NCBI GenBank assembly: GCA_023301745.1
Contig: JALZVW010000006.1
Coordinates: 1-64,000, forward strand
Source: Arenicella sp.
Lineage (GTDB): Bacteria; Pseudomonadota; Gammaproteobacteria; Arenicellales; Arenicellaceae
Length of the DNA stretch: 64,000 nt
Direction of reading: 5' to 3'
Both the position numbers and the translations under genes were made by a program. The notes under the pieces were generated by a model, which saw only the letters and a list, made by a program, of their open reading frames with translations, was not told the DNA's origin and did no database searches. This document shows positions 16,925 to 58,134 of the stretch, piece after piece. The number at the start of each line of letters is the position of its first letter. Within the stretch, counting starts at the first letter, position 1.

Positions 16925-17695
16925 ATGTTGTTATCAAATTTGAGAACAAAACGGAGCGTTCATCGCCGCGTGTTCGGGCAATTATCTAAATTGATATTTA
17001 TTGCTATCGCAATGTATGGGCCAGTTGCGGTCGCTCAAAGCGTGCAGCCAATGGTCTATCAACTAGAAACTATTGGTAATAACTCATCGACTAATTTAAC
17101 CATCGAAAACACCAAGAGTTCCGCAATAACTTATGAAATGCTAGCGGTAAAAGTGAGCCACGATGAGATGGGCAATGAAACTCGAACTGATGCTGAAGAT
17201 GATTTTTTAATTTACCCACCTCAAACGCTAGTTGCACCCGGAAAAAAGCAGATCATTAAAGTGAAGTATGTTGGTGACCCTGAACTTGAATTGTCGCAAA
17301 CTTACCGTATTTTGGTAAATGAGTTGCCTATAGATTTAAGTGGCGGCGACAATAGTGGCATCAGTGTCGCGATTAACTTCAGCACACTCTGCAACATCGT
17401 GCCGACTGGTTCTAGCGCCGCATTGGAAGTAACTCAGTTAAGCGAAATTGAGGATGATAAATGGTCGATTACAATCCAAAATAAAGGAACACGATTTTCT
17501 CGCCTTAGTGAGACCATCGTCGAAGTGGTGAGTCTTAGCGACCCTTCTAAAAAGAAGGTGTTTCGTAATGAGTATATAGGTGATTTGTTTAATAGAAATT
17601 TGGTCGCCCCTAAGTCTAAGCTAAAGCTTGAAATGCCCGCGATCGAAGGGTTCGAACCAGATAATACAAAAATCACTATTAGCGAAACCAGCTAA
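16925..17695 (+). CDS. Periplasmic pilus assembly chaperone (PapD-like)
   Basis: The product caps fimbrial subunits in the periplasm and hands them to the usher. It has 256 residues with a signal peptide ending near residue 37 (AVAQS). Two immunoglobulin-like domains follow. The first contains FLIYPPQTLVAPGKKQIIKV and ends with SQTYRILVNELP, the G1/F1 strand signature. The second is about residues 150-256. A single cysteine is present (FSTLCNIVP). It is the second gene of the operon, after the attenuator. PapD-family membership is clear; the subunit partners are inferred from context. Confidence 0.88.
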   Translation: MLLSNLRTKRSVHRRVFGQLSKLIFIAIAMYGPVAVAQSVQPMVYQLETIGNNSSTNLTIENTKSSAITYEMLAVKVSHDEMGNETRTDAEDDFLIYPPQTLVAPGKKQIIKVKYVGDPELELSQTYRILVNELPIDLSGGDNSGISVAINFSTLCNIVPTGSSAALEVTQLSEIEDDKWSITIQNKGTRFSRLSETIVEVVSLSDPSKKKVFRNEYIGDLFNRNLVAPKSKLKLEMPAIEGFEPDNTKITISETS

Positions 17696-17742
17696 ACTCA
17701 CGTTAAGCAAAAGGCTAACGGCGAATATGGATTTCGATAGTA

Positions 17743-20226
17743 ATGCTACTAAAGACAACAATCAGAGTGTTAACTAAGACAGTTCTATGTGTAATAGTTT
17801 GTGCTTGGCCGTATTATGTGAACGCTAACAGCTCGCTGCAGTTTGATTTACCTTTGATTGTTAATCAGGCTTTTACTGGCGATATTAGCGCGACTATTAC
17901 TGAAGAAGCACGGGCCGATGCGGTTAGTCGTACTGTAACTCTGCCATTTGCTAGACTTAAAACGCTGATAAGTGATCATGCGGTTGATGATCAAATGGAG
18001 CAGTGGTTTAGTTCCTATGCTGATGACTTTGATGGTGAAGTATCACTTTATGATTTACGAAATCTAGGTTTGGATATAAAGTTTGATCAAGGGCTTCTCG
18101 AGATTCACGTCAAAATTCAAAAACTAGGTGTTTCGTCGATCGCGTTGTTTGGTAGCCGAAAGCCAATACCTAAAAACAGTTATCAGCAATCTACATTTGC
18201 CAGTGGTTTGAATGTGTTCGTTCAGAATACATATTCTCATCGGGCTGCTGGGGTCACACCTGAAGGTTTTGGCGATTTGTCAGCAAATTTTTTCGGCTTT
18301 ACTACGATTGGTGGTTTTGAGGGCTGGTCTTTGTTTTATGAAGCCGATTATTTGCAAGGCGATGATAAACCGTTAGCTCGCCAGGACGTTGTTCTATTGC
18401 ATGACGACTTTAATCGAGGTCTGCGCTATTCAATCGGTGACGTGAGGCCGACCGTCTCAGAACTTCAGTCTTCTCCGGAGCTGTTCGGCGTTAGTGTTGA
18501 ACGTAATTACAACGAGATTAACCCGTTCCGAAATTTGAATCCAAGTGGCCGTAGCTCTTTTGAGTTGGAACGTGCTGCATTGGTGGCTTTTGAAGTAAAC
18601 GGAGTGATTGTCTCAGAGAGAAACCTAGAGCCCGGTAATTATTCTATATCAGATTTTCCCCTCACCTTCGGCGCAAATAACGTACGTGTGTATGTCGACG
18701 ACGGTACGTCTAGGCGCGAAGTTGCAAATTTTTCTACCTTTGTAGATTTGGATTTGTTAGAGCAAGGGCTTAGTAATTTTGGTGTAACGGCAGGTGTTCG
18801 CCGTGAAACGGGCACTGGGCGAAGCCGTCGTTATGGTGATGAGCCTGTGGTATTAGGCTTTTACGAGCGTGGCATTAGTCAAAATTTTACGGCTGGCGCT
18901 CAATTTGAGGCGGCTTCGGGCCATGCATTAATCGGTTCAAAAGCAGTTTATGGAAGCCGAGTTGGAGTGTTTGGTACTGAAGTAAATGTTTCTAAAAGAG
19001 AGGGGTTTAATACTAGCTTTAATTCGGTGTTACGTTACGAAGCTAGGCGTGAGACCAAATCTAACTGGTTTCTGCGTGGAGACTTTCAGTTGCGATATCA
19101 AGCTGAAGACTTTTTCGATGTAAACGATGTAGATCCCGACACATCAACCTCAGAACAAGTGGCTTTTAATGCCTCGCTTACGGCTAGCCGAGGTTCGATT
19201 AACTATAGCCTTGGGGCTAATATTAATGAAATTGATGATGCGATTACGCGAGCCTATTCTGCGTCACTTTTTAAGTCGTTCTCAAAATTCACGGCGTCGT
19301 TAAATTATAATTACGCGAAAAGTGACGGTGATGACTCGCGATCAAATTTCAGCGTTAATATCTCAATGCCTCTTGGTGGTTCTCTTAAAGGCTCAAGGTT
19401 GCGAAGTGTCTATCGTTCTCGTGATGAAGAAATTGAAACTGCATGGACTAACCCTTCTATAGAAGGGCTGGGGCCACCTTCGATCGAACGGCTTAGTGTG
19501 AGTCGTGACGTTAATTCTGAATCCTATGAAGCTGACTTCAATCATATTGGTGCTAGGTATCAGTTCGATGCTCAGCACGTGACAACAAACTCAAGACTTG
19601 AAAATGGTGTTAATACCTCACAAACTCGGTTAAATGCATCTACAGCGTTGGGCTTTGCCGATGGGCAATTTGCTCTTGGCAAACCATTTACAAGGGGATT
19701 TGTGGTCGTTAAGTCGCACAAAACGTTACGTGGGAAAAAGGTTTTTGTAAAAGACTCGAGTGGTCAAACTACACTAACCACCGCAAAACGGCTGAGTACG
19801 ACATTAGTACCGATTAACAATAGCTATAACGAGCAGGCCTTTAAATTTAATGTTGATGATCTGCCTCTAGGCTATGACCTTGGCGGTGGAGAGCTTCGAG
19901 TATTCCCCGGCAATTTAGCTGGCTATAAGTTCACGCTTGGCTCAGACGCTGCGAATACAGTTTTAGGCAAAGCGTTGTGGCCTGATAAATCTCCCTTAAA
20001 CCTTAAGTCCGGCAAGCTGCATTCTGATGATGGAGACGAGTTTACTGTTTTCACTAATCGCACAGGCCGCTTTGTAGCTGAAAAAGTCAAATTTGGAAAG
20101 TATCGTATGGTATTTACGAAAGGTAACGTTACTTACAGCGCAAATATCGAACTCAAAGAATCTAAGGAGCCTGGCCTTGTGCAAGTCGGCACTGTAGTAC
20201 TGGAGCGTCAATCTAATGAATCTTAA
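17743..20226 (+). CDS. Outer membrane usher protein
   Basis: Ushers are outer-membrane barrels that polymerise and secrete fimbrial subunits. The 827-residue product has a signal peptide (about 1-28) and an N-terminal periplasmic domain. The barrel/plug region contains SIGDVRPTVSELQSSPELFG and the plug-entry pattern LEPGNYSISDFPLTFGANNV (about residues 290-315). C-terminal periplasmic domains start near residue 690 (LPLGYDLGGGELRVFPG). The last 11 bases overlap the next gene, so the two are coupled. Size is in the usher range. No other usher is present in the window. Confidence 0.9.
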   Translation: MLLKTTIRVLTKTVLCVIVCAWPYYVNANSSLQFDLPLIVNQAFTGDISATITEEARADAVSRTVTLPFARLKTLISDHAVDDQMEQWFSSYADDFDGEVSLYDLRNLGLDIKFDQGLLEIHVKIQKLGVSSIALFGSRKPIPKNSYQQSTFASGLNVFVQNTYSHRAAGVTPEGFGDLSANFFGFTTIGGFEGWSLFYEADYLQGDDKPLARQDVVLLHDDFNRGLRYSIGDVRPTVSELQSSPELFGVSVERNYNEINPFRNLNPSGRSSFELERAALVAFEVNGVIVSERNLEPGNYSISDFPLTFGANNVRVYVDDGTSRREVANFSTFVDLDLLEQGLSNFGVTAGVRRETGTGRSRRYGDEPVVLGFYERGISQNFTAGAQFEAASGHALIGSKAVYGSRVGVFGTEVNVSKREGFNTSFNSVLRYEARRETKSNWFLRGDFQLRYQAEDFFDVNDVDPDTSTSEQVAFNASLTASRGSINYSLGANINEIDDAITRAYSASLFKSFSKFTASLNYNYAKSDGDDSRSNFSVNISMPLGGSLKGSRLRSVYRSRDEEIETAWTNPSIEGLGPPSIERLSVSRDVNSESYEADFNHIGARYQFDAQHVTTNSRLENGVNTSQTRLNASTALGFADGQFALGKPFTRGFVVVKSHKTLRGKKVFVKDSSGQTTLTTAKRLSTTLVPINNSYNEQAFKFNVDDLPLGYDLGGGELRVFPGNLAGYKFTLGSDAANTVLGKALWPDKSPLNLKSGKLHSDDGDEFTVFTNRTGRFVAEKVKFGKYRMVFTKGNVTYSANIELKESKEPGLVQVGTVVLERQSNES

Positions 20227-21148
20227 AAATATTATTAATTTACTTATTGCCAGTCTGCTGGTGCTGTCTTATAGCGCTGTCGTTGCTCAAGTGCCACCGA
20301 TTGATGTGCGACTTAAGCCACTCCCTACGATCAATTATCAACCTTTTTCAGGCCGGTCAGCGGAGCAGTTACTGCAAGTAGAATTTATTGTGATACCCGA
20401 GGTGACAGAGCAAGAGGCCGAGTCGACTCAAACACCAGAACCGAGGCGCGTCAGCTTAAGGATTCGACCTTCAGAGATCGGGCCATTTGTGGCTAGTGGC
20501 GAAAGTGGCCAATTACCTATTAGTGTGAGACCAGTCCAAAAGAATGGCAAGTTTGATTTTTTTGATAACGAATACCGGCATGATTTTACGGTGACCCCGT
20601 TTAGCAACAAAATCGAAACCGTGCGTTATCAGGTATATGTCAACTCGGGCGTATTTGCCGTAGCGGGTCGCTATACCCTGCCGTTGTATGTTGGAATCGT
20701 AGACGTCGTGACACAAGCGCCGCTGACTGATTTGACGGCTGTTAACGTCGAAGTTTTGGTTAAACCCAAATTGCAGGTAAATATCGCCGGCACTCGCACG
20801 GCTAAAGGGCCTGGCGGAAAGATCCCTAAAATTGATTTTGGTGAGCTCGAATCGGGTGAAACTCAGCGTGTATTCATTCAATTAAGAGGCAATGCGCCTG
20901 CAACTATTCGGGTAAGTTCGGAAAATGGAGGCATCATGAAAGGCAGTGAAACCGATACGTCAGTGAATTATTCCGTGGTCGTCGATAAAGTGCGATCTGA
21001 GTTGGATATGCCTTTGAATCTTAACCGACCTGTCTCGAAAAGCCTAAAAGGTGTGTCTTACCCGATGCAAGTAATTGTTGGGGATGTAAACGGCGCGTTC
21101 GCAGGTACCTATGAAGATATGATCACAGTGGAAGTTAGGCCTCAATGA
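20216..21148 (+). CDS. Final subunit of the fimbrial operon, cysteine-free, possible tip adhesin
   Basis: The gene overlaps the usher and closes the operon. The 310-residue product has a signal peptide (1-24, ending AVVA) and no cysteine at all, unlike the pilin. The N-terminal part (about 25-185) is beta-rich and includes RIRPSEIGPFVASGESGQLP. The C-terminal part (about 186-310) has LQVNIAGTRTA and DFGELESGETQRVFIQLRGN, which resembles a pilin-type domain and ends in alternating hydrophobic residues. Two-domain proteins at this position are often tip adhesins, so this role is inferred. I do not recognise the receptor domain. Confidence 0.65.
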   Translation: MNLKNIINLLIASLLVLSYSAVVAQVPPIDVRLKPLPTINYQPFSGRSAEQLLQVEFIVIPEVTEQEAESTQTPEPRRVSLRIRPSEIGPFVASGESGQLPISVRPVQKNGKFDFFDNEYRHDFTVTPFSNKIETVRYQVYVNSGVFAVAGRYTLPLYVGIVDVVTQAPLTDLTAVNVEVLVKPKLQVNIAGTRTAKGPGGKIPKIDFGELESGETQRVFIQLRGNAPATIRVSSENGGIMKGSETDTSVNYSVVVDKVRSELDMPLNLNRPVSKSLKGVSYPMQVIVGDVNGAFAGTYEDMITVEVRPQ

Positions 21149-22468: not shown

Positions 22469-22498
22469 TGAACCTTTTCCAATGCGTTCAACACTAAG
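22469..22498 (+). promoter_or_regulatory. ECF-type promoter candidate of the sigma factor operon
   Basis: TGAACCT (22469-22475) followed after 16 bases by CACTAA resembles the sigma-E promoter form GGAACTT-N16-TCTAA. It lies about 85 bases before the sigma gene ATG. Most ECF factors activate their own operon, so an ECF box is expected here. The match is partial. Confidence 0.35.
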
Positions 22499-22582: not shown

Positions 22583-23152
22583 ATGAATACAGAGATAGCT
22601 GATCCCATAGAGGTAACCGTCGTAGAGGATCGAGAGTTGCTGACGCTAATCGCCCAAAAGCGAGATAAAGAAGCGTTAAAGGAGCTATATGACCGCTACC
22701 GGCATCCATTGGGCGGCTTTTTACGCCGCAAACTGTATCAGGACAAGTTGGTAGATGAAGTCTACAACGATGTGATGATGACCTTGTGGCAAAAGGCCGA
22801 CACATTTAGAGGGGATTCGAAAGTCTCCACTTGGATATTTGGTATCGCCTATAGAACATGTTTATCGCATTCACGCAAAGAAACCAAACACACATCGGGT
22901 TCGGTTGATTATGAATTAGAAGAAGTGGGTGGTGACGAAGAGTCTGGCGCGGTCGAAAGCCTGAGAGCGGCGATAACTGAGTTGTCTGCTGACCATCGAA
23001 CCGTTATCGAAATGGCGTACTTCTATGGGCATAGCATTGCTGAGATTTCACAGATGATTGATTGCCCACTAAATACCGTTAAAACTAGGCTGTTTCATGC
23101 GAGGCAGAAATTGAAAAATATAATGCAAACCGAACAAGAATCGATAAACTAA
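22583..23152 (+). CDS. ECF (group 4) RNA polymerase sigma factor
   Basis: The product directs RNA polymerase to a small set of extracytoplasmic-stress promoters. I take the ATG at 22583 (MNTEIADPIEV, 189 residues); the ORF track uses a GTG six codons upstream. Region 2 is at about 28-95 (VDEVYNDVMMTLWQKADTF, then GDSKVSTWIFGIAYRTCLSH). Region 4 is at about 128-180 (LSADHRTVIEMAYFYGHSIA, then CPLNTVKTRLFHARQKL). There is no extra C-terminal domain. The anti-sigma gene begins 18 bases downstream and a subtilase follows, so the three form one operon. Confidence 0.93.
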   Translation: MNTEIADPIEVTVVEDRELLTLIAQKRDKEALKELYDRYRHPLGGFLRRKLYQDKLVDEVYNDVMMTLWQKADTFRGDSKVSTWIFGIAYRTCLSHSRKETKHTSGSVDYELEEVGGDEESGAVESLRAAITELSADHRTVIEMAYFYGHSIAEISQMIDCPLNTVKTRLFHARQKLKNIMQTEQESIN

Positions 23153-23170
23153 ACTATTTTGAATATTGAT

Positions 23171-23860
23171 ATGAAAGACTCAACACGTAAAACATCGATC
23201 ATTAGAGATACGGCTATATTTGATTATGTTGCAGGCCATCAATCTGACGGAGCGCGGCAGAGCTTTGAACGTTCGGCAGATCAAGACGAGTGCTTAATGC
23301 AGGATATCATGGCTGAAAAAGAACTCCGTAACAGCATGAATAAACTTGTCGATAGCGATGCTTGCGAGCCGGTATCAATGGATAATTTTGACGCCTTGTT
23401 AACGAAAATCGAAGCGGATGAAAGTGAGCTAATGGTCGAAAGTGTTGGCAAGCAATCTGGCTTTGACAACGTGATTATTGCTCGACCGTGGCGTTGGCAA
23501 CGTCAGTTTAACATTGCCGCAAGCTTTGGCTTTGTCGCCATGATTGGATTGATTGGTTTTGAGCTTACAACAGAACCAAAATTCGTTACTTTATCAAATG
23601 AGACGACATCTGAAAAAATTGATTTTATGGGCCTCGTTGAACAACAGCGCTTGATTAAATTAGAGTTTTCGAAAGGCGTTACGCCCGCTGAGATAGGCGT
23701 TCTATTAGAACGCTATCAATTGAGAGCCATACAACCAGGCCCTTTTAGACAAGTTGTTTTAGTCAGTGCCGCGAATAGTGTTAGCGCTGAGTATCTAGTT
23801 CGGTGGGCGGCAGATAATCGCATCGCAACCGCTGAACTAGTATCATTTGGTAGTGAGTAG
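23171..23860 (+). CDS. Membrane-bound anti-sigma factor
   Basis: The likely role is to hold the upstream ECF factor at the membrane until a periplasmic signal arrives. The ATG at 23171 gives 229 residues. A cytoplasmic N-terminal part (1-110) contains FDYVAGHQSDGARQSFERS, the pattern of anti-sigma domains; no zinc-binding HxxxCxxC is present. One membrane helix lies at about 114-132 (AASFGFVAMIGLIGFEL). The periplasmic tail (about 160-226) reads LIKLEFSKGVTPAEIGVLLE, then GPFRQVVLVSA. To my eye that resembles the small alpha/beta fold of subtilase prodomains (inference). Position after a sigma gene supports the call. Confidence 0.8.
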   Translation: MKDSTRKTSIIRDTAIFDYVAGHQSDGARQSFERSADQDECLMQDIMAEKELRNSMNKLVDSDACEPVSMDNFDALLTKIEADESELMVESVGKQSGFDNVIIARPWRWQRQFNIAASFGFVAMIGLIGFELTTEPKFVTLSNETTSEKIDFMGLVEQQRLIKLEFSKGVTPAEIGVLLERYQLRAIQPGPFRQVVLVSAANSVSAEYLVRWAADNRIATAELVSFGSE

Positions 23861-23875
23861 CCAAGAGTGAATCTG

Positions 23876-25114
23876 ATGAATAAATTACTGTTAGTGGTTT
23901 TAATTTGCGCGATATTGGGTGTAGACCACGCCCGTTCTCAGAGTGAGTTTGCTGACGTTATTGAAGTCAAGGAGTGGGTTGTTGTCTTGGACGACCCAAG
24001 GCCTAAGCGATTGCAGGGTTGGCAGCGCACAGGCTATCGTGGTGGAAGCAATTATCGTAGTGCGATAGAGCTTAAACGGTTTGGTGGTAGGCTGGCTAAA
24101 GATTACAAGCTAACGCTTAAAGATCAATGGCTGATCGAAAGCTTGGGTGTCTATTGTTTGATCGTGACGTTTAACGACGATACTAAAAAAACAATTTCTG
24201 CGTTAGAGAAGTTGAAAAACGTGCAATGGGTGCAGCCTTCTAATGATTTTGATTTGCTGTCTTCGACCACAGACAAGGTATCAAAAAGAGAGGCCGAGTC
24301 GTTCCAGCCGGCGATTACTACCTCAATGACTGGCGATGGCGTAACCATTGCCATTATTGATTCGGCCGTTGATCGTTCACATCCTGATTTGGCCGCGGCG
24401 GTAGCGTTGAGTACAGATTTTGTTATCGCTTCAAAAGAAAAGCCAAAATCTAGGTCTGTTGGTGGTGAAGCGCATGGCACCGCCATCGCCGGGGTTATTG
24501 TTGCTCAGCCTGATAGCAAGCTGGGTATCGTCGGGATTGCACCCAAAGCCACATTGTTAGCCTACCGAGGGTGTTGGGAGAATGAACAGGGGCAGACTAA
24601 GTGTAATACACTCTCTTTAGCGCGCTCTTTGGACGCGGTTAGCCGAAGTGGCGCTGATATACTGAATTTGAGCCTTTCTGGCCCGAAGGACTTTTTACTC
24701 GATCAATTAGTTAATCGGGTGATCACCAATGGCACCTTGGTGGTGGCTGCGTTTGATCCACAGCGAGCGGGCTTATCGCGGTTTCCGTCTGAAAAAGAGG
24801 GCGTATTGATTGTGCGTGCAGAAACAATGGACAGTCAATTTGATAGTGTTTTTACCGCACCCGGTGCTTTAGTGGTCGCGTCCCCAGGCAATCGTTATGA
24901 TTTCAAGCAAGGGCACTCTATTGCAACGGCCTATACCAGTGGCGTGATTGCTTTGGTTAAGCAATCTCAGGCCTCAGAGCTCGGAAGTAATACTCATTGG
25001 CGTGAATTTTCCGAAGTCAGCAGAGCCACTGACTTGATGCTTCAGCTAAGCAATCAGTCACCTGAAGCCGGTAGAGCGTTGCTAACTAACCAGTACCTAG
25101 TTTTGTCTGATTGA
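23876..25114 (+). CDS. Subtilisin-like (S8) serine peptidase, exported
   Basis: The ATG at 23876 gives 412 residues with a signal peptide (about 1-22). A prodomain-like region (about 30-120, GVYCLIVTFNDDTKKTISAL) precedes the S8 domain. The triad is recognisable: Asp near 162 (IIDSAVDRSHPD), His near 200 (EAHGTAIAGV), Ser near 348 (GHSIATAYTSGV, not the usual GTSMATP). The expected oxyanion-hole Asn is Asp (VVAAFDP where AAGN is usual, about 294). Two cysteines (RGCWENEQGQTKC) could form a disulfide. It is the third gene of the sigma/anti-sigma operon, so a role in signal sensing or as a regulon product is likely. Activity is not certain. Confidence 0.85.
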   Translation: MNKLLLVVLICAILGVDHARSQSEFADVIEVKEWVVVLDDPRPKRLQGWQRTGYRGGSNYRSAIELKRFGGRLAKDYKLTLKDQWLIESLGVYCLIVTFNDDTKKTISALEKLKNVQWVQPSNDFDLLSSTTDKVSKREAESFQPAITTSMTGDGVTIAIIDSAVDRSHPDLAAAVALSTDFVIASKEKPKSRSVGGEAHGTAIAGVIVAQPDSKLGIVGIAPKATLLAYRGCWENEQGQTKCNTLSLARSLDAVSRSGADILNLSLSGPKDFLLDQLVNRVITNGTLVVAAFDPQRAGLSRFPSEKEGVLIVRAETMDSQFDSVFTAPGALVVASPGNRYDFKQGHSIATAYTSGVIALVKQSQASELGSNTHWREFSEVSRATDLMLQLSNQSPEAGRALLTNQYLVLSD

Positions 25115-25135: not shown

Positions 25136-25843
25136 TTAATATAAACGGTAGGTGATGGCGAAGGAAACATCGAGTCTCTCTACACTGAATGGTGTTAATA
25201 AGCTTAGGCTGTTGTCATCACTGAGGTGGGCATTAATTTCGCTGCTCCACCGGCCTTTCTCAAAGCGTAAGCCTAGTGTGGCGTGGCCAAGTGAAGTGGT
25301 TGGCGCGCTGGTTTCAAAATCTAAATAGCCCGCGCTTAAATTGAGTGACCACTTTTCGTCAAGCGGGAGGTCATAAGAGGCGCTGGCGCCGATCGCTCGG
25401 TAGCCGCGGCCTAACCAGTCGTCGATGGCTGAAAGCGTAAAAATGGTCGAGCGATTTGCATGCCAACTCAATGCCGCTGTGGTGTAGTCCCATTGGCGAC
25501 CTGGTGTTGGGGCGTATTCACTGCGAGTAAGCGTTGCCGAGAGTGCTTGGTTATTGCTAAGCGCATTAAAATAACCGAGGTAGTAGTGACAACCGGCATC
25601 GATGCCGTCACTAAAAACGAGATTCTCAGATTTATAGCAATCGAGACCAGCAAAAGCTCCATTGTCAAACGAGACATCGGCCGCTAAATTAGCAACTGGC
25701 TTTCCGCCTGAGATGTCTAATCCATCAATAAACTTGCTCGATTCTATGCCAGCGTTCACCTGTATGACGGGAGCGGCTAGCGTCTCTATCGAGCTCAACG
25801 CAAGGCCTAATGCGGTGGCTATAAGTAGTCGCTGATCTCTCAT
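25136..25843 (-). CDS. Small outer-membrane beta-barrel protein, TorF/Gcw_chp-like
   Basis: I place the start at the ATG giving MRDQRLLIATALGLALSSIE, a signal peptide ending near ETLA, 235 residues; the ORF track start is a TTG overlapping cysG. The mature protein is made of alternating strands with aromatic residues. Its opening (IQVNAGIESSKFIDGLDISG, then KPVANLAADVSFDNG) recalls the putative porins named TorF. The chain ends in VSFAITYRLY with a C-terminal aromatic, typical of barrels. Two cysteines (LDCYKSENL, AGCHYYLGYF) may pair. It starts 10 bases after cysG on the same strand and is convergent with the subtilase. Function unknown. Confidence 0.6.
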   Translation of the reverse strand: MRDQRLLIATALGLALSSIETLAAPVIQVNAGIESSKFIDGLDISGGKPVANLAADVSFDNGAFAGLDCYKSENLVFSDGIDAGCHYYLGYFNALSNNQALSATLTRSEYAPTPGRQWDYTTAALSWHANRSTIFTLSAIDDWLGRGYRAIGASASYDLPLDEKWSLNLSAGYLDFETSAPTTSLGHATLGLRFEKGRWSSEINAHLSDDNSLSLLTPFSVERLDVSFAITYRLY

Positions 25844-25853
25844 ATAAGTAGGC

Positions 25854-27248
25854 TTAGGTATCCGTTTTAGATTCAAACCAAGCTAATTTATCACGAAGTG
25901 AGACAACCGAGCCAATAATGATGAGGGTCGGCGCTTTCACGGCCACGCTTTCAATGATATCGGGCATGGTCTGAAGTTGGCCTGTGTAGACCTGTTGTCT
26001 CGTGGTGGTGCCTTGTTCTACAAGCGCAATAGGCATATCGGGAGCGACCCCATGCTCGATCAACTGCTGACAAATGTGAGGCAAACCAACTAAGCCCATA
26101 TAGATCACAATTGTTTGATTAGGGTTCGCAAGCATTGACCAATTCAGGTCAACGGTACCGTTTTTAAGATGACCCGTAACGAAAACACATGATTGGGCGT
26201 GATCTCTGTGAGTTAACGGGATCCCCGCATACGTTGCGCACCCGCTAGCGGCGGTGATTCCAGGCACGATTTGAAAAGGCACGTGTGCTTGCGCGAGTAG
26301 CTCAATTTCTTCACCCCCTCGGCCGAAGATGAAAGGGTCTCCGCCTTTTAGGCGAACCACACTCTTTCCTTGTTTTGCTAAGTCAACCAATAGCTGGTTG
26401 ATTTCGCCTTGCGGCACCGCGTGTTCAGCGCGGCGTTTACCGACATAAATACGGTCTGCGTCTCGGCGGCACAAATTTAATATATCAGCGCTTACTAAAC
26501 GGTCATAAAGCACAACGTCTGCTTGCTGCATGAGCCGTAATGCTCTAAAGGTCAGTAAGTCTGGGTCGCCAGGGCCCGCGCCAATCAGCCAAACCTCGCC
26601 AACCTCGTTGGCCTTTGATGCACTATTGTCGATACTTAGCTGTAATTGCTTTTCAGCATCGCTACTGCGTCCAGAAAAAAACAATTCGGCAATCGGGCCT
26701 TGCACCACTTTCTCCCAGAACATGCGCCGCTCGCGCTCTTCGGGCAGAGCGCGCTTAAGGGCGTCACGATACCGACCCATCGCCGACGCAAGTTGCCCGT
26801 AGCTTGCGGGGATAAACGCTTCGAGTTTGGCGCGCAGCATTCGCGCTAATACGGGTGCGTCACCACCCGTGGATATAGCGATTAATACCGGTGACCTGTC
26901 GATGATCGAGGGCGTAATAAAACTACAGAGTTCTGGTTGATCGACCACGTTGACTGGAATATTTGCCGCTTGAGCGAGTTCTGAAACATGTTTGTTTACT
27001 TCGGGCTCGCTGGTTGCTGCGGTGATTAAGCGATAGCCTGCAATATCACTATCTTTAACGCGTCGTGCGTGATGTTGTATTTTATCAGCGAATTCTTCTT
27101 TGAGGTCAGTGCAAAGCTCTGGCGCGATAACCGTGATCTCTGCACCAGCCGAAATCATCAGCCGTATTTTTCTCAGCGCGACGGGGCCACCGCCAACAAC
27201 TAAGCACGCTTGTTTGTTTAGATCGACGAAAATAGGATAATTTTGCAT
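25854..27248 (-). CDS. cysG: Siroheme synthase (trifunctional)
   Basis: CysG makes siroheme from uroporphyrinogen III by two methylations, an NAD-dependent dehydrogenation and iron insertion; siroheme serves sulfite and nitrite reductases. The 464-residue product has the dehydrogenase/ferrochelatase part at about 1-150 (CLVVGGGPVALRKIRLM; STGGDAPVLAR). The methyltransferase part is at about 215-455 (GAGPGDPDLLT; VRLKGGDPFIFGRGGEE; PGITAASGCATYAG). Length and domain order match E. coli CysG. It is divergent from the trpD2-like gene with only 47 bases between the starts. Confidence 0.97.
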   Translation of the reverse strand: MQNYPIFVDLNKQACLVVGGGPVALRKIRLMISAGAEITVIAPELCTDLKEEFADKIQHHARRVKDSDIAGYRLITAATSEPEVNKHVSELAQAANIPVNVVDQPELCSFITPSIIDRSPVLIAISTGGDAPVLARMLRAKLEAFIPASYGQLASAMGRYRDALKRALPEERERRMFWEKVVQGPIAELFFSGRSSDAEKQLQLSIDNSASKANEVGEVWLIGAGPGDPDLLTFRALRLMQQADVVLYDRLVSADILNLCRRDADRIYVGKRRAEHAVPQGEINQLLVDLAKQGKSVVRLKGGDPFIFGRGGEEIELLAQAHVPFQIVPGITAASGCATYAGIPLTHRDHAQSCVFVTGHLKNGTVDLNWSMLANPNQTIVIYMGLVGLPHICQQLIEHGVAPDMPIALVEQGTTTRQQVYTGQLQTMPDIIESVAVKAPTLIIIGSVVSLRDKLAWFESKTDT

Positions 27249-45259: not shown

Positions 45260-45557
45260 TGTGATGTGGTTTTTGGTTTGCAGTGTTGTGATATCGGCTT
45301 TATTTATTGTCAATGTACGGCATCAACACCGTTTGGCCTATTTAGCGTTTCAAGCGGCGGAGACCCAGCGTGACGACCTAAACGATGAGTGGGGTCAGCT
45401 ATTAGTTGAGTCTAACGTTTGGGCATCTGCCCAGCGAGTTGAGAAGGACGCGAGTAAGCGTCTGTCTATGCGAGCGCCATTAAAAGGTGAGGTGAAGTTC
45501 ATTGGCGAAGAGCTAATAATTGACACCAATGACACTAGCTTGGTAGGTGCTCAGTAA
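45249..45557 (+). CDS. ftsL: Cell division protein FtsL
   Basis: FtsL is a small bitopic protein that joins FtsB and FtsQ and activates FtsWI at the septum. The 102-residue product has a membrane helix at about 6-22 (MWFLVCSVVISALFIVNV) followed by a coiled-coil periplasmic stretch (about 30-80). It overlaps rsmH by 11 bases and shares one base with ftsI. Sequence conservation is low in this family; the call rests on topology and position. Confidence 0.92.
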   Translation: MRDSVMWFLVCSVVISALFIVNVRHQHRLAYLAFQAAETQRDDLNDEWGQLLVESNVWASAQRVEKDASKRLSMRAPLKGEVKFIGEELIIDTNDTSLVGAQ

Positions 45558-47374
45558 TGACCAGAGCCAAATCATTGCCGGTGAAAACGCAACGCGAAGC
45601 TCGAGTTGAGAAAACCGCCAAAGAAGTGGTTGTGCCGGTGTCGACTTGGCGTTACAACGCTATTGTATTGATTTTCGGTGCCTTGTTTCTGGGGCTAGCT
45701 GTGCGGGCCGTACAATTGCAGATCGTTGATAATGATTATCTGCAATCGCAAGGCGATGCGCGTTACTTGAGAGTTCAAAAAGAGCCGCCAACACGGGGCA
45801 TGATCACCGATCGCAACGGCCAGCCAATCGCTATTAGTACTCCGGTAGATTCTATTTGGATGCACCCGGCGACTATTCTCAAGCAGCAGCAGGAGTATTC
45901 TTATGAAAAGCTATCGAGCTTGCTAAAAACCAGCCCTGATGAACTGTTGGCTAAAGCCGAAAAAAGAAAGGGTCGCGAGTTTGTTTATTTAAAGCGCCAT
46001 CTTTCGCCGCAGCTGGCGAATAAGATACTGGCCTTAAATGTCCCTGGTGTTAATAAGGTTCGAGAGTACAAACGTTATTATCCTGCCGGGCCAGTGTTAG
46101 GGCATATATTGGGTTTTACTAATATCGATAACGAAGGCCAAGAAGGATTGGAGCTTGCGTACAATGACGATTTAAAGGGGCAGGCTGGGCGCACTCAAGT
46201 GCTGCGCGACAAAGTAGGTCACGTCGTTGAGTATGTTGAACAATTGTCTCGTGTTCGTCATGGTGATGACATTGCTTTGAGCATCGATGCGCGTATTCAA
46301 TATCTGGCTTATCGTCATCTTCAGGCGGCGGTGAAAAGACACGATGCCACATCCGCCTCTCTGGTTGCTTTAGATGCAAAGACAGGCGAAGTCTTGACCA
46401 TGATTAGCATGCCGGACTTTAATCCCAATGATCGCGCAGACTTAAAGAGTTCTCTTTTTCGAAATCGCTCGATCACAGACTCATACGAACCGGGCTCAAC
46501 GGTTAAGCCGATCACTATCGCGATGGCGATGGAGGCTGGCGTGGTCGACCCTGAGACTATCATTGATACTGAAAAAGGCTTTTACTACATCGGCCGTAGC
46601 CGAATTAGTGATACTAAGCCGCACGGTGAAATCAGTGTTTCTGACGTCATCAAAATGTCGAGTAATATTGGCTCAGCGAAGATCGCCATGATGTTAGACC
46701 CTAGCGATCTGTTTAATACCTATCGTGAGCTCGGTTTTGGCCGAACAAATAAACTTAAGATTCAAGGCGAGCAGAAAGGGATGCTGGCTAATCGTCAGAA
46801 GCCGATTGAGCATGCCACCATGAGTTATGGCTATGGCCTATCAGTTAATACATTGCAACTGGCTAGGGCATATCAGGCGCTGGCTAATGATGGGGTGCTA
46901 TTGCCAGTGAGCATTCACCCTGTCGACAAAGTGCCCCAAGGCGAACGGGTTTTTTCTAAGCAAGTGACTGATCAAGTTGCCTTGATGCTTGAGGCCGCCG
47001 TCGGTGTCAAAGGCACTGCGCCGAAGGCGCGCGTAGATCAGTACCGCGTTGGCGGAAAAACCGGTACCGCGCATCGAGTGGTTAATGGTCGTTATCAAGA
47101 CGACAGTTATATGTCGCTGTTCGCCGGTTTTGCGCCGATTAGTGACCCCGAGATAGTGCTAGTGGTGTCAGTGAATGACCCTAAAGGTGTCGATTACTAT
47201 GGCGGTTTAGTGGCCGCGCCTGTCTTTTCTGAAGTCATGGCGGGAGCCTTGCGTCTGCGCGGTGTGGCTCCGGATGCAATGACCGCTCCGGATGAAGAGC
47301 CGGGGCTCAAGTTGATGATTGCTCGGCCAGTAGCGAGTAGTGATGCATCAATATCAGCGGAGGCCTCTCAATGA
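45557..47374 (+). CDS. ftsI: Septal peptidoglycan transpeptidase FtsI (PBP3)
   Basis: FtsI crosslinks septal peptidoglycan and works with FtsW. The 605-residue product has a short cytoplasmic part and a membrane helix at about 33-53. The dimerisation domain (PTRGMITDRNGQPIAIST) comes next. The transpeptidase domain has STVK at 314-317, SSN at 368-370 and KTG at 501-503. It ends with an unstructured tail. It overlaps murE by four bases. Confidence 0.97.
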   Translation: MTRAKSLPVKTQREARVEKTAKEVVVPVSTWRYNAIVLIFGALFLGLAVRAVQLQIVDNDYLQSQGDARYLRVQKEPPTRGMITDRNGQPIAISTPVDSIWMHPATILKQQQEYSYEKLSSLLKTSPDELLAKAEKRKGREFVYLKRHLSPQLANKILALNVPGVNKVREYKRYYPAGPVLGHILGFTNIDNEGQEGLELAYNDDLKGQAGRTQVLRDKVGHVVEYVEQLSRVRHGDDIALSIDARIQYLAYRHLQAAVKRHDATSASLVALDAKTGEVLTMISMPDFNPNDRADLKSSLFRNRSITDSYEPGSTVKPITIAMAMEAGVVDPETIIDTEKGFYYIGRSRISDTKPHGEISVSDVIKMSSNIGSAKIAMMLDPSDLFNTYRELGFGRTNKLKIQGEQKGMLANRQKPIEHATMSYGYGLSVNTLQLARAYQALANDGVLLPVSIHPVDKVPQGERVFSKQVTDQVALMLEAAVGVKGTAPKARVDQYRVGGKTGTAHRVVNGRYQDDSYMSLFAGFAPISDPEIVLVVSVNDPKGVDYYGGLVAAPVFSEVMAGALRLRGVAPDAMTAPDEEPGLKLMIARPVASSDASISAEASQ

Positions 47375-48816
47375 TGCGTTTAGCTGACTTGTTGGCGACT
47401 CTTAATATCGCTACCGACAATGAGGTCGGCGTCCAAGAGATTGTGATAGATAGTCGCAAGGTCTCGAATGGCTCGTTATTTTGTGCTTACAAGGGTTCAC
47501 TTGCTGATGGCCGTGATTATTTATTGGATGCTCAATTGGCTGGCGCTGTCGCCGTATTGTACGACCCGCTAGATTTTGAATTACCAAGCGATATCAAGGT
47601 TCCGGCATTTGCGGTGCCCCAGCTTCAACGCCAAGTTGGCAACCTAGCGCATGAATTTTTTGGTCGGGCGTGTGATGAAATGCAGGTGTTCGGCGTTACC
47701 GGTACCAATGGCAAAACGACCTGCTGTTATTTGCTAACTCAGGCGCTAACCCAGCTTGGTATGCAAGCGGCCATGATCGGGACTATTGGTGTCGGTAGGT
47801 TGGGCTCTTTGCAGCCAGTTACTCACACCACTCCCGATCCGATTGAACTACATAAAATGCTTGCTGATTTTAAAGCGCAAGGCGTTACACAAGTCTGCAT
47901 GGAAGTTTCATCACATGCGCTAGATCAGGGGCGGGTAAATGGCGTCGCTTTTTTCTGCACCCTGTTTACTAACCTGAGTCACGATCACCTGGATTACCAT
48001 GGCGACATGGCGAGCTATGGCGCCGCTAAGCAACGTTTATTCACTGATTTTAATAGTGAGCTGGTGGTGACTAATATCAGCGACTCGCTAGGCGCATCCT
48101 TGATTGATGTGGCCAACGCTGAGTTTATTGTGTCCTACGGCCGAGGTGGTGATGTATTTGCTGATGAGGCTGAGCTGGGCGACAAGGGGATTGAGTTTGA
48201 ATTTGAATGCAATGGCGTTGACTTTTCAGCGCATACCCCATTGATTGGTGCCATCAATATTCCAAATATTGAAATGCTAGTGGCGACGTTATTGGCCTTA
48301 AGCACCTCTATCGAAGACATTAAATCAATACTGGCTTCTTTAACACCGGCGCCTGGTCGTATGGAGTTGTATCGTGTGGCTGGCAGCGCCAGTGTCGTGG
48401 TTGACTATGCGCACACTCCCGACGCTCTTGAAAAAGCGTTGGCTTCAGTGAAAGCGCATTGCCGTGGCAAGTTGTGGTGTGTATTTGGCTGTGGCGGCGA
48501 CCGAGATCAAGACAAGCGACCGGTCATGGGCGCGATTGCTGATAAGGCGGCTGATAAGGTTGTGATAACCAATGATAATCCGCGCTCTGAAGCGGCGGCC
48601 GATATCGCCGAGCAAATTGTTGTCGGTATATCTGGCGACTATCAGGTGATCCTTGATCGTGCTGATGCCATCGCGGCGTCGATTGAGCAATCAGGGCCCG
48701 ATGATTGGGTGTTAATTGCGGGTAAAGGCCACGAAACCACTCAGCACCTAGGTGATGCTTTGCTTCCTTTCTCTGACCGAGAACAGGTTCAGCGTGCTAT
48801 GGGAGCTTCATTATGA
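47371..48816 (+). CDS. murE: UDP-MurNAc-tripeptide ligase, meso-diaminopimelate adding
   Basis: MurE adds the third residue to the cytoplasmic peptidoglycan precursor. The 481-residue product has the P-loop GVTGTNGKTT (about 110-119) and the C-terminal ligase motif NDNPRSE, whose DNPR marks the meso-diaminopimelate enzymes. It starts at an ATGATG pair overlapping ftsI by four bases and overlaps murF by four. Confidence 0.97.
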   Translation: MMRLADLLATLNIATDNEVGVQEIVIDSRKVSNGSLFCAYKGSLADGRDYLLDAQLAGAVAVLYDPLDFELPSDIKVPAFAVPQLQRQVGNLAHEFFGRACDEMQVFGVTGTNGKTTCCYLLTQALTQLGMQAAMIGTIGVGRLGSLQPVTHTTPDPIELHKMLADFKAQGVTQVCMEVSSHALDQGRVNGVAFFCTLFTNLSHDHLDYHGDMASYGAAKQRLFTDFNSELVVTNISDSLGASLIDVANAEFIVSYGRGGDVFADEAELGDKGIEFEFECNGVDFSAHTPLIGAINIPNIEMLVATLLALSTSIEDIKSILASLTPAPGRMELYRVAGSASVVVDYAHTPDALEKALASVKAHCRGKLWCVFGCGGDRDQDKRPVMGAIADKAADKVVITNDNPRSEAAADIAEQIVVGISGDYQVILDRADAIAASIEQSGPDDWVLIAGKGHETTQHLGDALLPFSDREQVQRAMGASL

Positions 48817-50180
48817 TGCAGCTATCGCAAGTCTCACAGGCTGTGAGCGGCCAGCGTTCTGGGGTTGATGTCATGCTTCAAAATATCAGCATTAATACCC
48901 GTGATGATTGCCAAGGTCGTTTGTTTGTCGCGCTGAAAGGCGCAAATTTTGACTCACACCAATTCGTGGCTCAGGCCGAGCAAGCCGGGGCGAGTGCGTT
49001 ATTGGTTGAGCAGGCGGTAGAAACTTCATTGCCTACCGTTACTGTGAAAAATACCCATCAAGCGTTGATCGACTTGGCAAGCTGGTGGCGCTCTCAGTTT
49101 GCATTGCCGTTGATTGGTGTTACTGGCAGCGTCGGCAAGACCACGGTTAAAGAAATGTTGGCCTGTATTTTTGCTGAATTTGGTGACGGTGTCGTGACCA
49201 AAGGTAATTTAAATAATGAAATTGGCGTTCCGCTTACATTGATGAATTTAAACCTCAAAGATCGCTATGCCATTGTTGAGATGGGCATGAATCATGCGGG
49301 TGAGATCGCGCGTTTGAGTTGCATGGCTAAGCCAACAATTGCGGTCGTGAACAACGCCGCTGCAGCCCACTTGGAAGGTTTAGGTTCTATTGAAGCTGTA
49401 GCAAACGCTAAAGGTGAAATATATCAAGGTCTGTCGGCCGATGGTGTTGCCATTATCAATAAAGACGATGACTTCGCTGAGCTTTGGGCTGACCTCGCAA
49501 AAGAGCATTCGATTATTACTTTTGGCTTGTCTGATGGCGCTGATGTCACTGGCCGTTACCAAGAAAAGAAAGGTGGCTTGACTATTAAGGTTGTCGCGAA
49601 AGGCAAAAAGCTGAAGATTAAATTGAACACAGTCGGTGAACATAGCGTTAGAAACGCGCTTGCGGCTGTTGCCGTTGCGACGGCGGCCAAAATACCGGTT
49701 AAAAATATAGAAGCTGGGTTGGCTAATTTTGTGCCGGTCGCTGGCCGGCTGACGATTGAAAAAATTGCCGGTGTTCAGGTGATTGATGACACTTACAACG
49801 CAAACCCAGCGTCTATGCGTGCGGCAATCAATGTGTTGGTTCAGAATGAAGACAACCTATTGGTCGTCGGCGATATGGCCGAGCTTGGTGCCGCGGCAGA
49901 GGCTGAACATAAAGCATTGGGCGAGCAAGCCGCAAAACGAGGTGTCAAAAAAATATACGCATGCGGCGATTTTGCCGAATTGGTTATCTCTGGATTTGGC
50001 AAAGGCGAAGGGGTCGCATTTACCACTCAAGCATTGCTTTTAGAGCGTCTAAGTCAAGATGCCTTAAGCGGTACAATTTTGGTTAAAGGGTCTCGCTCCG
50101 CAAAAATGGAGCGAGTGGTTGAGGCATTGCACGAGAAGCTGGCCGACGTTTCGTTAGTCTCAAAAAGGGGTGAAAATTAA
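48813..50180 (+). CDS. murF: UDP-MurNAc-tripeptide:D-Ala-D-Ala ligase
   Basis: MurF adds D-Ala-D-Ala to finish the UDP-MurNAc pentapeptide. The 455-residue product has [17 protein letters not shown] (P-loop, about 105), the [13 protein letters not shown] block, and [15 protein letters not shown] in the ligase domain. It overlaps murE by four bases and shares one base with mraY. Confidence 0.97.
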
Positions 50181-51262
50181 TGTTATATGCGCTACTTGAA
50201 TCGCTAGCCGATCAGTATAGTTTTTTAAATGTATTTCAATACATCACGTTTCGTGCGATTTGCTCGGTATTAACCGCGTTGACAATCTCGCTGGTGCTGG
50301 GGCCGGTGGTGATTCGCAAGCTAAGCATTTATAAGATAGGCCAAACGGTACGAAAAGACGGCCCTCCAACGCACTTCGATAAAGTCGGTACGCCGACCAT
50401 GGGTGGTTTGTTGATTCTGCTATCTGTTATTTTATCGACCGTATTATGGGCCGATATGACCAACCGCTTTGTGCAAATCACCTTGTTCACCTGTTTTTTC
50501 TACGGTGTGATTGGCTGGTATGACGATTATCAAAAACTAGTTCATAAAGATCCTGTCGGTATGGGCTCACGGAATAAATTTTTGAGCCAAAGTGTGATCG
50601 CCATGATCGCTGCGTATTGGCTCTATTCGACCGCGCAAACGCCGATTGAAACATCGCTGATCATCCCGTTTTTTAAAGGCATCGCAATCCCGCTGGGCAT
50701 CTTATTTTTACCGCTGACGTACTTCGTGATTGTGGGTACTAGTAATGCCGTGAACTTGACCGATGGTCTTGATGGTCTAGCCATTGTGCCAACCGCGATG
50801 GTGGCCGGCGCACTGGCGGTATTCTGCTATTTGTCGGGCCACGCGGTATTTGCTGACTACTTACAAATACCACAAATTGCGGGTACTGGTGAGGTGGCCA
50901 TTTTTTGCGCTGCATTAGTCGGTGCCGGCCTCGGCTTTCTGTGGTTCAACACTTACCCTGCGCAAGTGTTCATGGGTGACATTGGTTCCCTTTCGCTCGG
51001 CGCGTCACTAGGTGTGGTGGCCGTGATTGTTCGCCAAGAACTGGTGTTGTTCATAATGGGGGGCATTTTTGTTTTAGAAACGGTGTCCGTGATTTTACAA
51101 GTTGCATCGTTCAAGCTCACTGGCAAGCGCATTTTCCGTATGGCCCCGATTCATCATCACTTTGAATTAAAAGGCTGGCCTGAGCCTCGCGTTATTGTGC
51201 GGTTTTGGATCATAAGTCTGATTCTTGTATTGATCGGCTTAGCCACTCTAAAAGTTAGATAG
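50180..51262 (+). CDS. mraY: Phospho-MurNAc-pentapeptide transferase
   Basis: MraY makes lipid I by joining the pentapeptide precursor to undecaprenyl phosphate in the inner membrane. The 360-residue product has about ten membrane helices. It shows the motifs [20 protein letters not shown] (about 55-74), [25 protein letters not shown] and the HHHFE stretch ([14 protein letters not shown]). Length equals E. coli. Confidence 0.98.
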
Positions 51263-51278
51263 GAAAATAGAAATTCTA

Positions 51279-52670
51279 ATGTCTTCGCAAACTTACAATC
51301 CTCAACAAACACTGATGGCGCAATACGTGTCCGCGACGGTGATTGGTTTGGGTGTGACCGGCTATAGCGTGGCTCGGTATTTGCGCGCGCGCGGGCTAAC
51401 TGTGACGGTGCTTGATTCTCGCTCAGAGCCGCCCTTAGCCAGCGAATTTAAGCGTGAGTTTCCTGAAGTTGAAACTCGTTTTGGCGTATTTTCTGAAGGC
51501 GACTTAACAAGCGCTGGCCTCGTTGTTGCTAGCCCTGGCGTTTCGCTCAAAGAGCCAATGCTACGCGCCGCAAAAAAGCATGGTGCGCATATCGTTGGCG
51601 ACATCGAGTTATTCCTTCAAGAAAATTCCAAACCCGTTATTGCCATTACTGGCTCGAACGGTAAAAGCACCGTGACAACGCTGGTTGGGGCGATGTGTGA
51701 GGCGGGTGGGTTTAAGGCCCTAGTCGCAGGCAATATTGGTAAGCCTGCATTGGACTCGCTCACCGATCAAATTGATTTTGATGTGGCGGTGTTGGAACTC
51801 TCTAGTTTTCAATTAGAAACCACTTATCAAGTGCCTGCTGAATCGTCCGCGATTTTAAATATCAGTGCTGACCACATGGATCGGTACGATTCAATGGGTG
51901 ACTACGTACTAGCCAAAGCTCGTATTATTCGAGGCGCAAAGCGCGCTGTATTACCTCGCCACGATGAGTGGTTGGCGCAAATAACTAACGTTAATAAAAT
52001 CTTAGGTTTTGAGCTTGAAGCGCCATCGAGTGATTGTGATTTCGGCATCGTTAGAAAGTCTGGTAAACGTTGGTTGGTGAAGGGTGATAAACGCCTAATG
52101 CTGCTCAGCGAGATCCCTCTAATCGGCTTACATAATGTAAAGAACGTTTTGAGTGCGTTTGCATTAGTTGATTTTTTAGAGATCTCTTTAGATGCCCTGG
52201 TTAATGCGGTGTTGAATTTCAACGGCTTGCCTCATCGTATGCAAACGGTTGTTGCCGTCAATGACGTCGCGTGGGTAAATGATTCTAAAGCAACAAATGT
52301 TGGCGCAACGGCAACCGCGCTTAATAACCTAGAGCAGAACGTGATTTGGATTGCCGGCGGGCAAGGCAAGGGCGCCGACTTTAATGAGTTGAGAGCCGCC
52401 GTTAGCCGAAACATTAAGCACCTGGTCTTAATTGGCGAAGATGCACCGAAAATCGAAGCGGCTTTGACAGGCTTATTACCCATTTCACTTGCTAATGATA
52501 TGCAGGGTGCGGTTAATCAGGCGGCGGGTCTTGCTAGCGACGGCGATATTGTTTTGCTCAGCCCTGCCTGTGCGAGTTTTGATATGTTTCGGAGCTTTGA
52601 AGACCGTGGCGATGAGTTTACTCGCTGTGTCGAAATCACCTTAGCTGAATCTGACGGAGGTGCTGTATGA
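51279..52670 (+). CDS. murD: UDP-MurNAc-L-Ala:D-Glu ligase
   Basis: MurD adds D-glutamate to UDP-MurNAc-L-alanine. The 463-residue product has an N-terminal Rossmann-like domain (VIGLGVTGYSVARYL), the P-loop ITGSNGKSTVTTL near 122, FQLETTY, and NDSKATNVGATATAL in the third domain. It ends with LLSPACASFDMFRSFEDRGD, a MurD hallmark. It overlaps ftsW by four bases. Confidence 0.97.
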   Translation: MSSQTYNPQQTLMAQYVSATVIGLGVTGYSVARYLRARGLTVTVLDSRSEPPLASEFKREFPEVETRFGVFSEGDLTSAGLVVASPGVSLKEPMLRAAKKHGAHIVGDIELFLQENSKPVIAITGSNGKSTVTTLVGAMCEAGGFKALVAGNIGKPALDSLTDQIDFDVAVLELSSFQLETTYQVPAESSAILNISADHMDRYDSMGDYVLAKARIIRGAKRAVLPRHDEWLAQITNVNKILGFELEAPSSDCDFGIVRKSGKRWLVKGDKRLMLLSEIPLIGLHNVKNVLSAFALVDFLEISLDALVNAVLNFNGLPHRMQTVVAVNDVAWVNDSKATNVGATATALNNLEQNVIWIAGGQGKGADFNELRAAVSRNIKHLVLIGEDAPKIEAALTGLLPISLANDMQGAVNQAAGLASDGDIVLLSPACASFDMFRSFEDRGDEFTRCVEITLAESDGGAV

Positions 52671-53884
52671 CCAGTCCGTCGTTGCAAGCAACTCGCGCTC
52701 AGCCGCACATGAATAGTGCTGGCGTAGATTCAATTTTATTGGGAACATTCATCGCATTGTTGATGTTGGGTCTGATTATGGTGTTCTCGTCAACCATCGC
52801 CATGGGCAGCCAAGATTTAAACACCAATACGTCGCATTTTTGGCGTCAATTAGTGCATATGATCCTGGGTGTTAGCTTGACCGCGATTGTCGCAAGCGTT
52901 CCCGTTTGGCTTTGGCAAAAATTGAGCATGCCTCTTTTAGTCGGAGCAATTGTGTTGTTGCTGTTACTCTTATTTGTTGGAATCGAGGTTAACGGCTCTA
53001 GGCGTTGGATGTCGATCGTCGGTTTTCGCTTGCAGCCCGCAGAGTTTGCTAAGCTCGCCATCGTGCTGTATGCCGCGAGCTATTTAACGCGCAAGCAACG
53101 CGAGATCACAAAATTTTCGAAAGGCATTGTCAACATGGCCGTGGTGCTAGCCGTTGTCGGCGGGCTGTTATTGATGCAGCCCGATTTTGGTAGCTTTGTT
53201 GTTATGGTCGCTACCGTCGGTCTGATGATGTTCTTGGGCGGAATTCGTATTAGTCATACGATCTTGTGCTTAAGCGTTGTTGGCTCAGCCATGGCTTTGA
53301 TGATCGTATTGTCTCCATATCGTATGAGGCGATTTACTGGCTTTTTAGATCCATGGTCTGACCCGTTTGGTTCGGGGTTTCAACTAACTCAAGCACTGAT
53401 TGCGGTTGGTCGTGGCGAAATATTTGGTGTGGGTTTAGGCGCGAGCATTCAAAAACTCTACTACTTGCCGCATGCCAATAATGATTTTATCTTAGCGGTG
53501 ATTGGTGAAGAGCTCGGTTTGATTGGTATCATTTTAGTCATTGGCTTGTACGCGACACTATTGCATCGAGCCTTGATAATTTCGCGCACCGCAGAATTGG
53601 TTGGTCGCGTTTATGCTTCTCGTTTAGCGCAAGGCATTGGTTTTTTGCTGGTATTTCAAGCGGTAATTAATATTGGGGTAAATCTTGGTGTATTACCGAC
53701 CAAAGGTTTGACACTTCCGTTCATTAGTTATGGCGGTAGCAGCATGTTAGTTTGCTGTATTGCTATGGGGCTGCTGTTTGGCGTTGATCGTCAGAATCGA
53801 AAGCGCGACACCAGTGGGACAGTTCGCACGGCGAGCTCCGCTCGCACGTCTAAACGAAATGCTGAATTGGGGGCCGTTTTATGA
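52667..53884 (+). CDS. ftsW: Septal peptidoglycan glycosyltransferase FtsW
   Basis: FtsW is the SEDS polymerase of septal glycan, paired with FtsI. The 405-residue product has about ten membrane helices. It shows SRRWMSIVGFRLQPAEFAKL near 105-125, the PDFGSFVV segment, and the end motif KGLTLPFISYGGSSMLV. A basic cytoplasmic tail follows. It overlaps murD and murG by four bases each. Confidence 0.97.
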   Translation: MTSPSLQATRAQPHMNSAGVDSILLGTFIALLMLGLIMVFSSTIAMGSQDLNTNTSHFWRQLVHMILGVSLTAIVASVPVWLWQKLSMPLLVGAIVLLLLLLFVGIEVNGSRRWMSIVGFRLQPAEFAKLAIVLYAASYLTRKQREITKFSKGIVNMAVVLAVVGGLLLMQPDFGSFVVMVATVGLMMFLGGIRISHTILCLSVVGSAMALMIVLSPYRMRRFTGFLDPWSDPFGSGFQLTQALIAVGRGEIFGVGLGASIQKLYYLPHANNDFILAVIGEELGLIGIILVIGLYATLLHRALIISRTAELVGRVYASRLAQGIGFLLVFQAVINIGVNLGVLPTKGLTLPFISYGGSSMLVCCIAMGLLFGVDRQNRKRDTSGTVRTASSARTSKRNAELGAVL

Positions 53885-58116: not shown

Positions 58117-58134
58117 CACTAGCGCGATACTGCA

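Follow-up and report, generated by a model that had tools for sequence, protein, structure and literature searches.

In a 64,000-nucleotide stretch of Arenicella sp. DNA (positions 1 to 64,000 of contig JALZVW010000006.1, assembly GCA_023301745.1; hereafter the window), three consecutive genes encode an extracytoplasmic function (ECF) sigma factor, an anti-sigma factor with one transmembrane segment and an exported S8 subtilase, and the periplasmic tail of the anti-sigma is homologous to subtilase prodomains. This homology is established at good confidence by matches to PF22148, the predicted fold, a profile comparison and a hidden Markov model (HMM) search. The trio quite possibly forms an autoregulated envelope-stress switch, in which the tail, as a pseudo-prodomain, would be the receptor of the subtilase from the same operon and its binding or cutting would start sigma release. 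The gene order and spacing given in the original prediction, which was made from the DNA letters alone, proved exact. Between the end of the sigma stop codon (23152) and the ATG of the anti-sigma (23171) lie 18 bp, and between the end of the anti-sigma stop codon (23860) and the ATG of the subtilase (23876) lie 15 bp. The exported subtilase named there as third gene was recovered by its Peptidase_S8 match and by a hydrophobic signal-like segment at its N-terminus. Pfam matches to the sigma factor covered regions 2 and 4 only.

The same prediction placed the tail in the beta-alpha-beta style of subtilase prodomains and proposed a structure prediction followed by a search against peptidase prodomains; the predicted structure, the PF22148 matches of relatives and the profile comparison agree on this style. 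An AlphaFold model from a 28-row alignment (mean predicted local distance difference test score 83) showed a short helix at residues 152-157 followed by a beta-alpha-beta-beta-alpha-beta arrangement at residues 161-223. Most of the top matches of this model among PDB folds were subtilase prodomains or propeptide-like inhibitors (subtilisin, furin/PC1, EpiP and POIA1; entries 3cnq, 9fid, 9fie, 9fic, 1spb, 3t41, 3whi and 1itp). These scored a probability of about 1 and a target template-modelling score of about 0.7 but E values of only 0.03-0.2; E values in the whole search began at 0.02, and the fold search alone is therefore only suggestive. Background in the same search comprised a DAHP synthase domain at rank 1, RRMs and BLUF. 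Since a comparison of the tail profile with PDB sequences gave nothing convincing, the PDB evidence for the tail is evidence of fold. At the sequence level, PF22148 (Fervidolysin_NPro) was matched by the tails of six of 16 relatives with a best E of 5.4e-6, one of them (L060) above the curated cut-off, and the window anti-sigma searched alone gave no PF22148 match above that cut-off. Alignment of the tail profile with the neighbouring subtilases' own prodomains matched the second half of the domain with an hhalign probability of 81% and E 1.2e-5, against E 0.39 for the sigma control in the same comparison. Finally, a tail HMM run over 2416 open reading frames matched, apart from anti-sigmas, only the N-terminal prodomains of two other S8 proteases, whose loci had themselves come from an anti-sigma-profile search of 369 genomes.

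The subtilase departs from most S8 proteases near its active site. The AAGN motif with the canonical oxyanion-hole Asn, which is usual but not universal, is replaced by FDP in the window and is variable in relatives; the catalytic triad of this subfamily is intact (24359-24919 in the window). The altered motif bears on rate, not on S8 membership. Several subtilase relatives carry lipoprotein-type signal sequences, as judged by eye. A role of the anti-sigma tail as a folding chaperone needed by the subtilase was considered and dropped, since the subtilase retains its own prodomain.

Conservation of the trio was followed within and beyond the genus. The whole trio is present in 10 of the 11 Arenicella relatives that have the anti-sigma, and the remaining one (G001) has sigma and anti-sigma without the subtilase. 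Arenicella genomes lacking both subtilase and anti-sigma also lack a close sigma, except for a contig fragment in G007. Outside the genus, in Gammaproteobacteria including Burkholderiaceae and in sphingomonads, loci found from S8 are preceded by the sigma and a tailed anti-sigma in every case where the contig reaches far enough. The original prediction had mentioned such neighbourhoods in other gammaproteobacteria, and the trio indeed recurs across Pseudomonadota, far beyond the genus. Seeding on the anti-sigma, which avoids the bias of an S8-seeded search, found an S8 gene next door in 17 of 22 assessable loci, with a few more cut by contig ends; the five without one are in G420, G199, G320 (second copy), G356 and G407. 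The loci of G420, G199 and the second copy of G320 form one clade beside dapB and carAB. Tails without any nearby subtilase had been named beforehand as grounds for rejecting the link, and this objection holds in part because five anti-sigma-seeded loci have no adjacent S8, two of them in genomes without a detectable S8. Such tails make up about a quarter of the tailed anti-sigmas, whereas the other loci keep the S8 neighbour, and a local subtilase is thus the rule but not obligatory. In G356 (L125, 5461-7478), the place of the subtilase behind the tailed anti-sigma is taken by an exported peptidase of caspase fold (C14) that carries a Sel1 repeat. One genome has the entire trio twice, in near-identical form (L066 and L067, G429 contig 1).

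The window anti-sigma alone gave no significant Pfam or NCBIfam match and no match in a plasmid collection. The HxxxCxxC residues are invariant in its distant anti-sigma homologues, and in Arenicella the region still aligns but has lost its metal ligands. Together with its position, this argues for an adjacent anti-sigma with an N-terminal anti-sigma domain that is predicted to bind the sigma factor. Its one membrane helix, as originally proposed, corresponds to a single strongly hydrophobic segment. Between this segment and the tail lies a short motif around L141, the only column conserved at 90% or more in the 28-row anti-sigma alignment. The pattern [YFI]xx[LF][STAG] was present between membrane and tail in 31 of 34 subtilase-linked anti-sigmas (five expected from shuffling), whereas only one of six unlinked anti-sigmas had it, there at a different position. 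The motif is a candidate site for cutting or switching.

Upstream of sigma, the pattern TGAACCNTTN-N13-YAC was found in all 11 Arenicella trio loci including the window (22469-22494) and is missing at this position in G001, the locus without the subtilase. The sigma promoter is thus predicted to be autoregulated. In five loci (L013, L014, L015, L016 and L021) a second, inverted copy faces a divergent gene of outer-membrane type, which is OMP_b-brl in L013. A strict scan of the organism's own 3 Mb genome returned five matches, one of them this site, against four for a reversed-pattern control, and no wider regulon is therefore claimed. A CHRD-domain protein is encoded near the trio in L014 (2939-4144), and L013 and L015 have similar-looking genes in the corresponding position.

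In the proposed switch, the anti-sigma would hold the sigma factor at the inner membrane, and its tail would face the periplasm as a subtilase prodomain standing by itself. The partner of this tail would be the co-encoded subtilase, which is exported together with a prodomain of its own; the tail would act as a docking site for mature, unoccupied enzyme. Arrival of the subtilase would lead to a periplasmic cut of the anti-sigma, with the conserved juxtamembrane linker as the most likely site, followed by RseP-type site-2 cleavage that would free the sigma factor; an M50 protease is encoded elsewhere in the genome. The freed sigma would then transcribe the operon that encodes it and, in several of the relatives, also a gene for an outer-membrane beta-barrel, and the inducing signal is probably outer-membrane trouble. 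A more specific version is possible but doubtful: the subtilase itself would be the site-1 protease, recognizing the anti-sigma through a captured copy of a subtilase prodomain, and competition between this prodomain and the protease's own would set the signal.

The closest worked-out analogue is RsiV, the anti-sigma of sigma V in Bacillus subtilis, which is both receptor and inhibitor of lysozyme and in which binding starts regulated proteolysis (PMC5014341, PMC4183432). Both systems have a one-transmembrane anti-sigma with an outer inhibitor-type fold recognizing an enzyme; here, however, the enzyme would be a protease of the same operon, the domain is a subtilase prodomain, the bacteria are Gram-negative and binding is predicted. 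The window proteins gave no Pfam match to the RsiV-type lysozyme-binding domain, and the comparison concerns the way of working only. The RseA/DegS/RseP pathway of sigma E shares the ECF sigma, the one-transmembrane anti-sigma, a periplasmic protease, an RseP-type site-2 protease and an outer-membrane theme, whereas here an S8 subtilase from the operon itself would replace HtrA-type DegS at site 1, no PDZ sensor was seen, and the tail is not known to be a relative of the periplasmic domain of RseA. POIA1-like stand-alone inhibitors (family I9) and Fervidolysin_NPro have the same beta-alpha-beta-beta-alpha-beta fold, the tail being related in sequence to PF22148, but here a transmembrane helix links the domain to an anti-sigma domain. 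The site-1 protease of eukaryotes, which processes SREBP and ATF6, is a subtilase that cuts first in regulated intramembrane proteolysis; it is alike in having a subtilase as first cutter and unlike in being eukaryotic, and we know of no prodomain-like receptor on its substrates. To our knowledge, every bacterial site-1 protease worked out for an anti-sigma is of HtrA type, of PrsW type or a signal peptidase. Neither subtilisin nor subtilase is mentioned in a review of site-2-protease signalling from 2023 (PMC10202637). Subtilase and caspase-type (CHAT) proteins occur in the context of ECF54, which is treated under anti-sigma-independent regulation (PMC8999054). ECF54 shares an ECF sigma near subtilase genes, but all completely sequenced loci of the present set have an anti-sigma. 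A literature search for an anti-sigma combined with a subtilisin prodomain or with peptidase S8, or for a subtilisin acting at site 1, brought up nothing relevant, although it did not cover the main ECF classification and an earlier mention is possible. If the anti-sigma does read the subtilase through a captured prodomain, this would add a protease family and a recognition principle to transmembrane signalling, and would give a function to a gene quartet that one public record annotates only gene by gene.

Several observations weigh against the proposed switch. The tails lack the F/Y-x-x-L-like ending seen after beta-4 in the subtilases' own prodomains. Mirror-tree correlation was no higher for tail and subtilase than for anti-sigma domain and subtilase; the correlations reflect common ancestry and are not specific to the pair of tail and subtilase. 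The S8 subfamily of the subtilase may be slow, as the canonical oxyanion-hole Asn motif is missing. Tailed anti-sigmas without an adjacent subtilase occur in G001 and at the five loci listed above, and in two of these genomes, G420 and G199 (estimated 99-100% complete), no PF00082 match was found genome-wide. The difference in the juxtamembrane motif between linked and unlinked anti-sigmas (Fisher p 5e-4) is only indicative, since the motif was defined after viewing the alignment and the loci are phylogenetically non-independent.

Alternatively, the tail could be a tether that binds the subtilase and holds it in check at the inner membrane, itself left uncut by this protease. Once damaged substrates have drawn the subtilase off, the vacant tail would change state, and the site-1 cut would fall to another protease, DegS-like or a signal peptidase. 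RsiV is cut by a protease other than the enzyme it senses, which counts for such a tether. The resemblance of the tail to stand-alone propeptide inhibitors such as POIA1 in the fold search, the suggestion of a slow protease from the deviant oxyanion region and the precedent of RsiV, which senses and inhibits its enzyme (PMC5014341), also fit. However, the absent tail ending is the part that would fill the active-site cleft, and the loss of the juxtamembrane motif along with the subtilase fits cutting better, which leaves a tether somewhat unlikely. A different possibility is that the subtilase is a mere output of the regulon, an envelope clean-up protease, and that the tail is an old prodomain turned sensor of something else that does not touch it. 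In agreement with this, the tail persists where no S8 was detected in the genome and, at another locus, beside a caspase-type peptidase, and co-transcription alone would explain the gene order. We nevertheless regard it as unlikely, because homology of the tail to the prodomain of that very protease and the frequency of adjacency are hard to ascribe to chance, and because the juxtamembrane motif covaries with the subtilase. That the tail is a generic ferredoxin-like domain with convergent similarity to prodomains is very improbable: the RRM, BLUF and DAHP synthase matches and the weak fold E values would allow it, but the PF22148 matches, the profile comparison and the reciprocal HMM search disfavour it at the sequence level.

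Table 1. Features of the sigma/anti-sigma/subtilase locus and its convergent neighbour (window coordinates).
Feature	Position	Strand	Evidence
Predicted ECF promoter, TGAACC (-35) and CACTAA (-10)	22469..22497	+	Conserved pattern in Arenicella trio loci
ECF sigma factor, 189 aa	22583..23152	+	Sigma70_r2 E 4.5e-11; Sigma70_r4_2 E 8.5e-15
Anti-sigma, 229 aa, one transmembrane segment	23171..23860	+	Position, transmembrane segment, homology to zinc-motif (HxxxCxxC) anti-sigmas
Anti-sigma transmembrane segment, about residues 114-133	23510..23569	+	Hydropathy
Juxtamembrane motif FVTLS, residues 138-142, candidate cut or switch site	23582..23596	+	Motif counts, alignment
Prodomain-like periplasmic tail, residues 159-229	23645..23857	+	PF22148 matches, model, fold search, profile comparison, HMM search
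Exported S8 subtilase, 412 aa	23876..25114	+	Peptidase_S8 E 9.8e-25; structure model and fold matches
Subtilase's own prodomain, about residues 34-127	23975..24256	+	Weak PF22148 match, E 0.0064; model matched to pro-subtilisins
Subtilase catalytic domain; D162, H200, S348	24323..24985	+	Triad invariant in 28/28 homologues
TorF/gcw_chp-type putative porin, convergent neighbour	25136..25876	-	TIGR02001 E 2e-8, below curated cut-off

Across Pseudomonadota the trio is often a quartet with a TorF-type porin. Some relatives of the window porin match TIGR02001 above the curated cut-off, and in the 10 subtilase-bearing Arenicella relatives the porin adjoins the subtilase. Its orientation is convergent in Arenicella and co-directional in most of the distant loci looked at. 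The quartet is also found on plasmid pR1a of Sphingomonas sp. R1, where the public record annotates the genes only as sigma, zf-HC2, S8 peptidase and TorF porin. Just upstream of the trio, the window contains a chaperone-usher-like cluster (16925-21148) with a PapD-type chaperone, an usher and a third exported protein, and further downstream an ordinary cell wall and division cluster (45557-59370) encodes a penicillin-binding protein, Mur ligases, FtsQ and FtsA.
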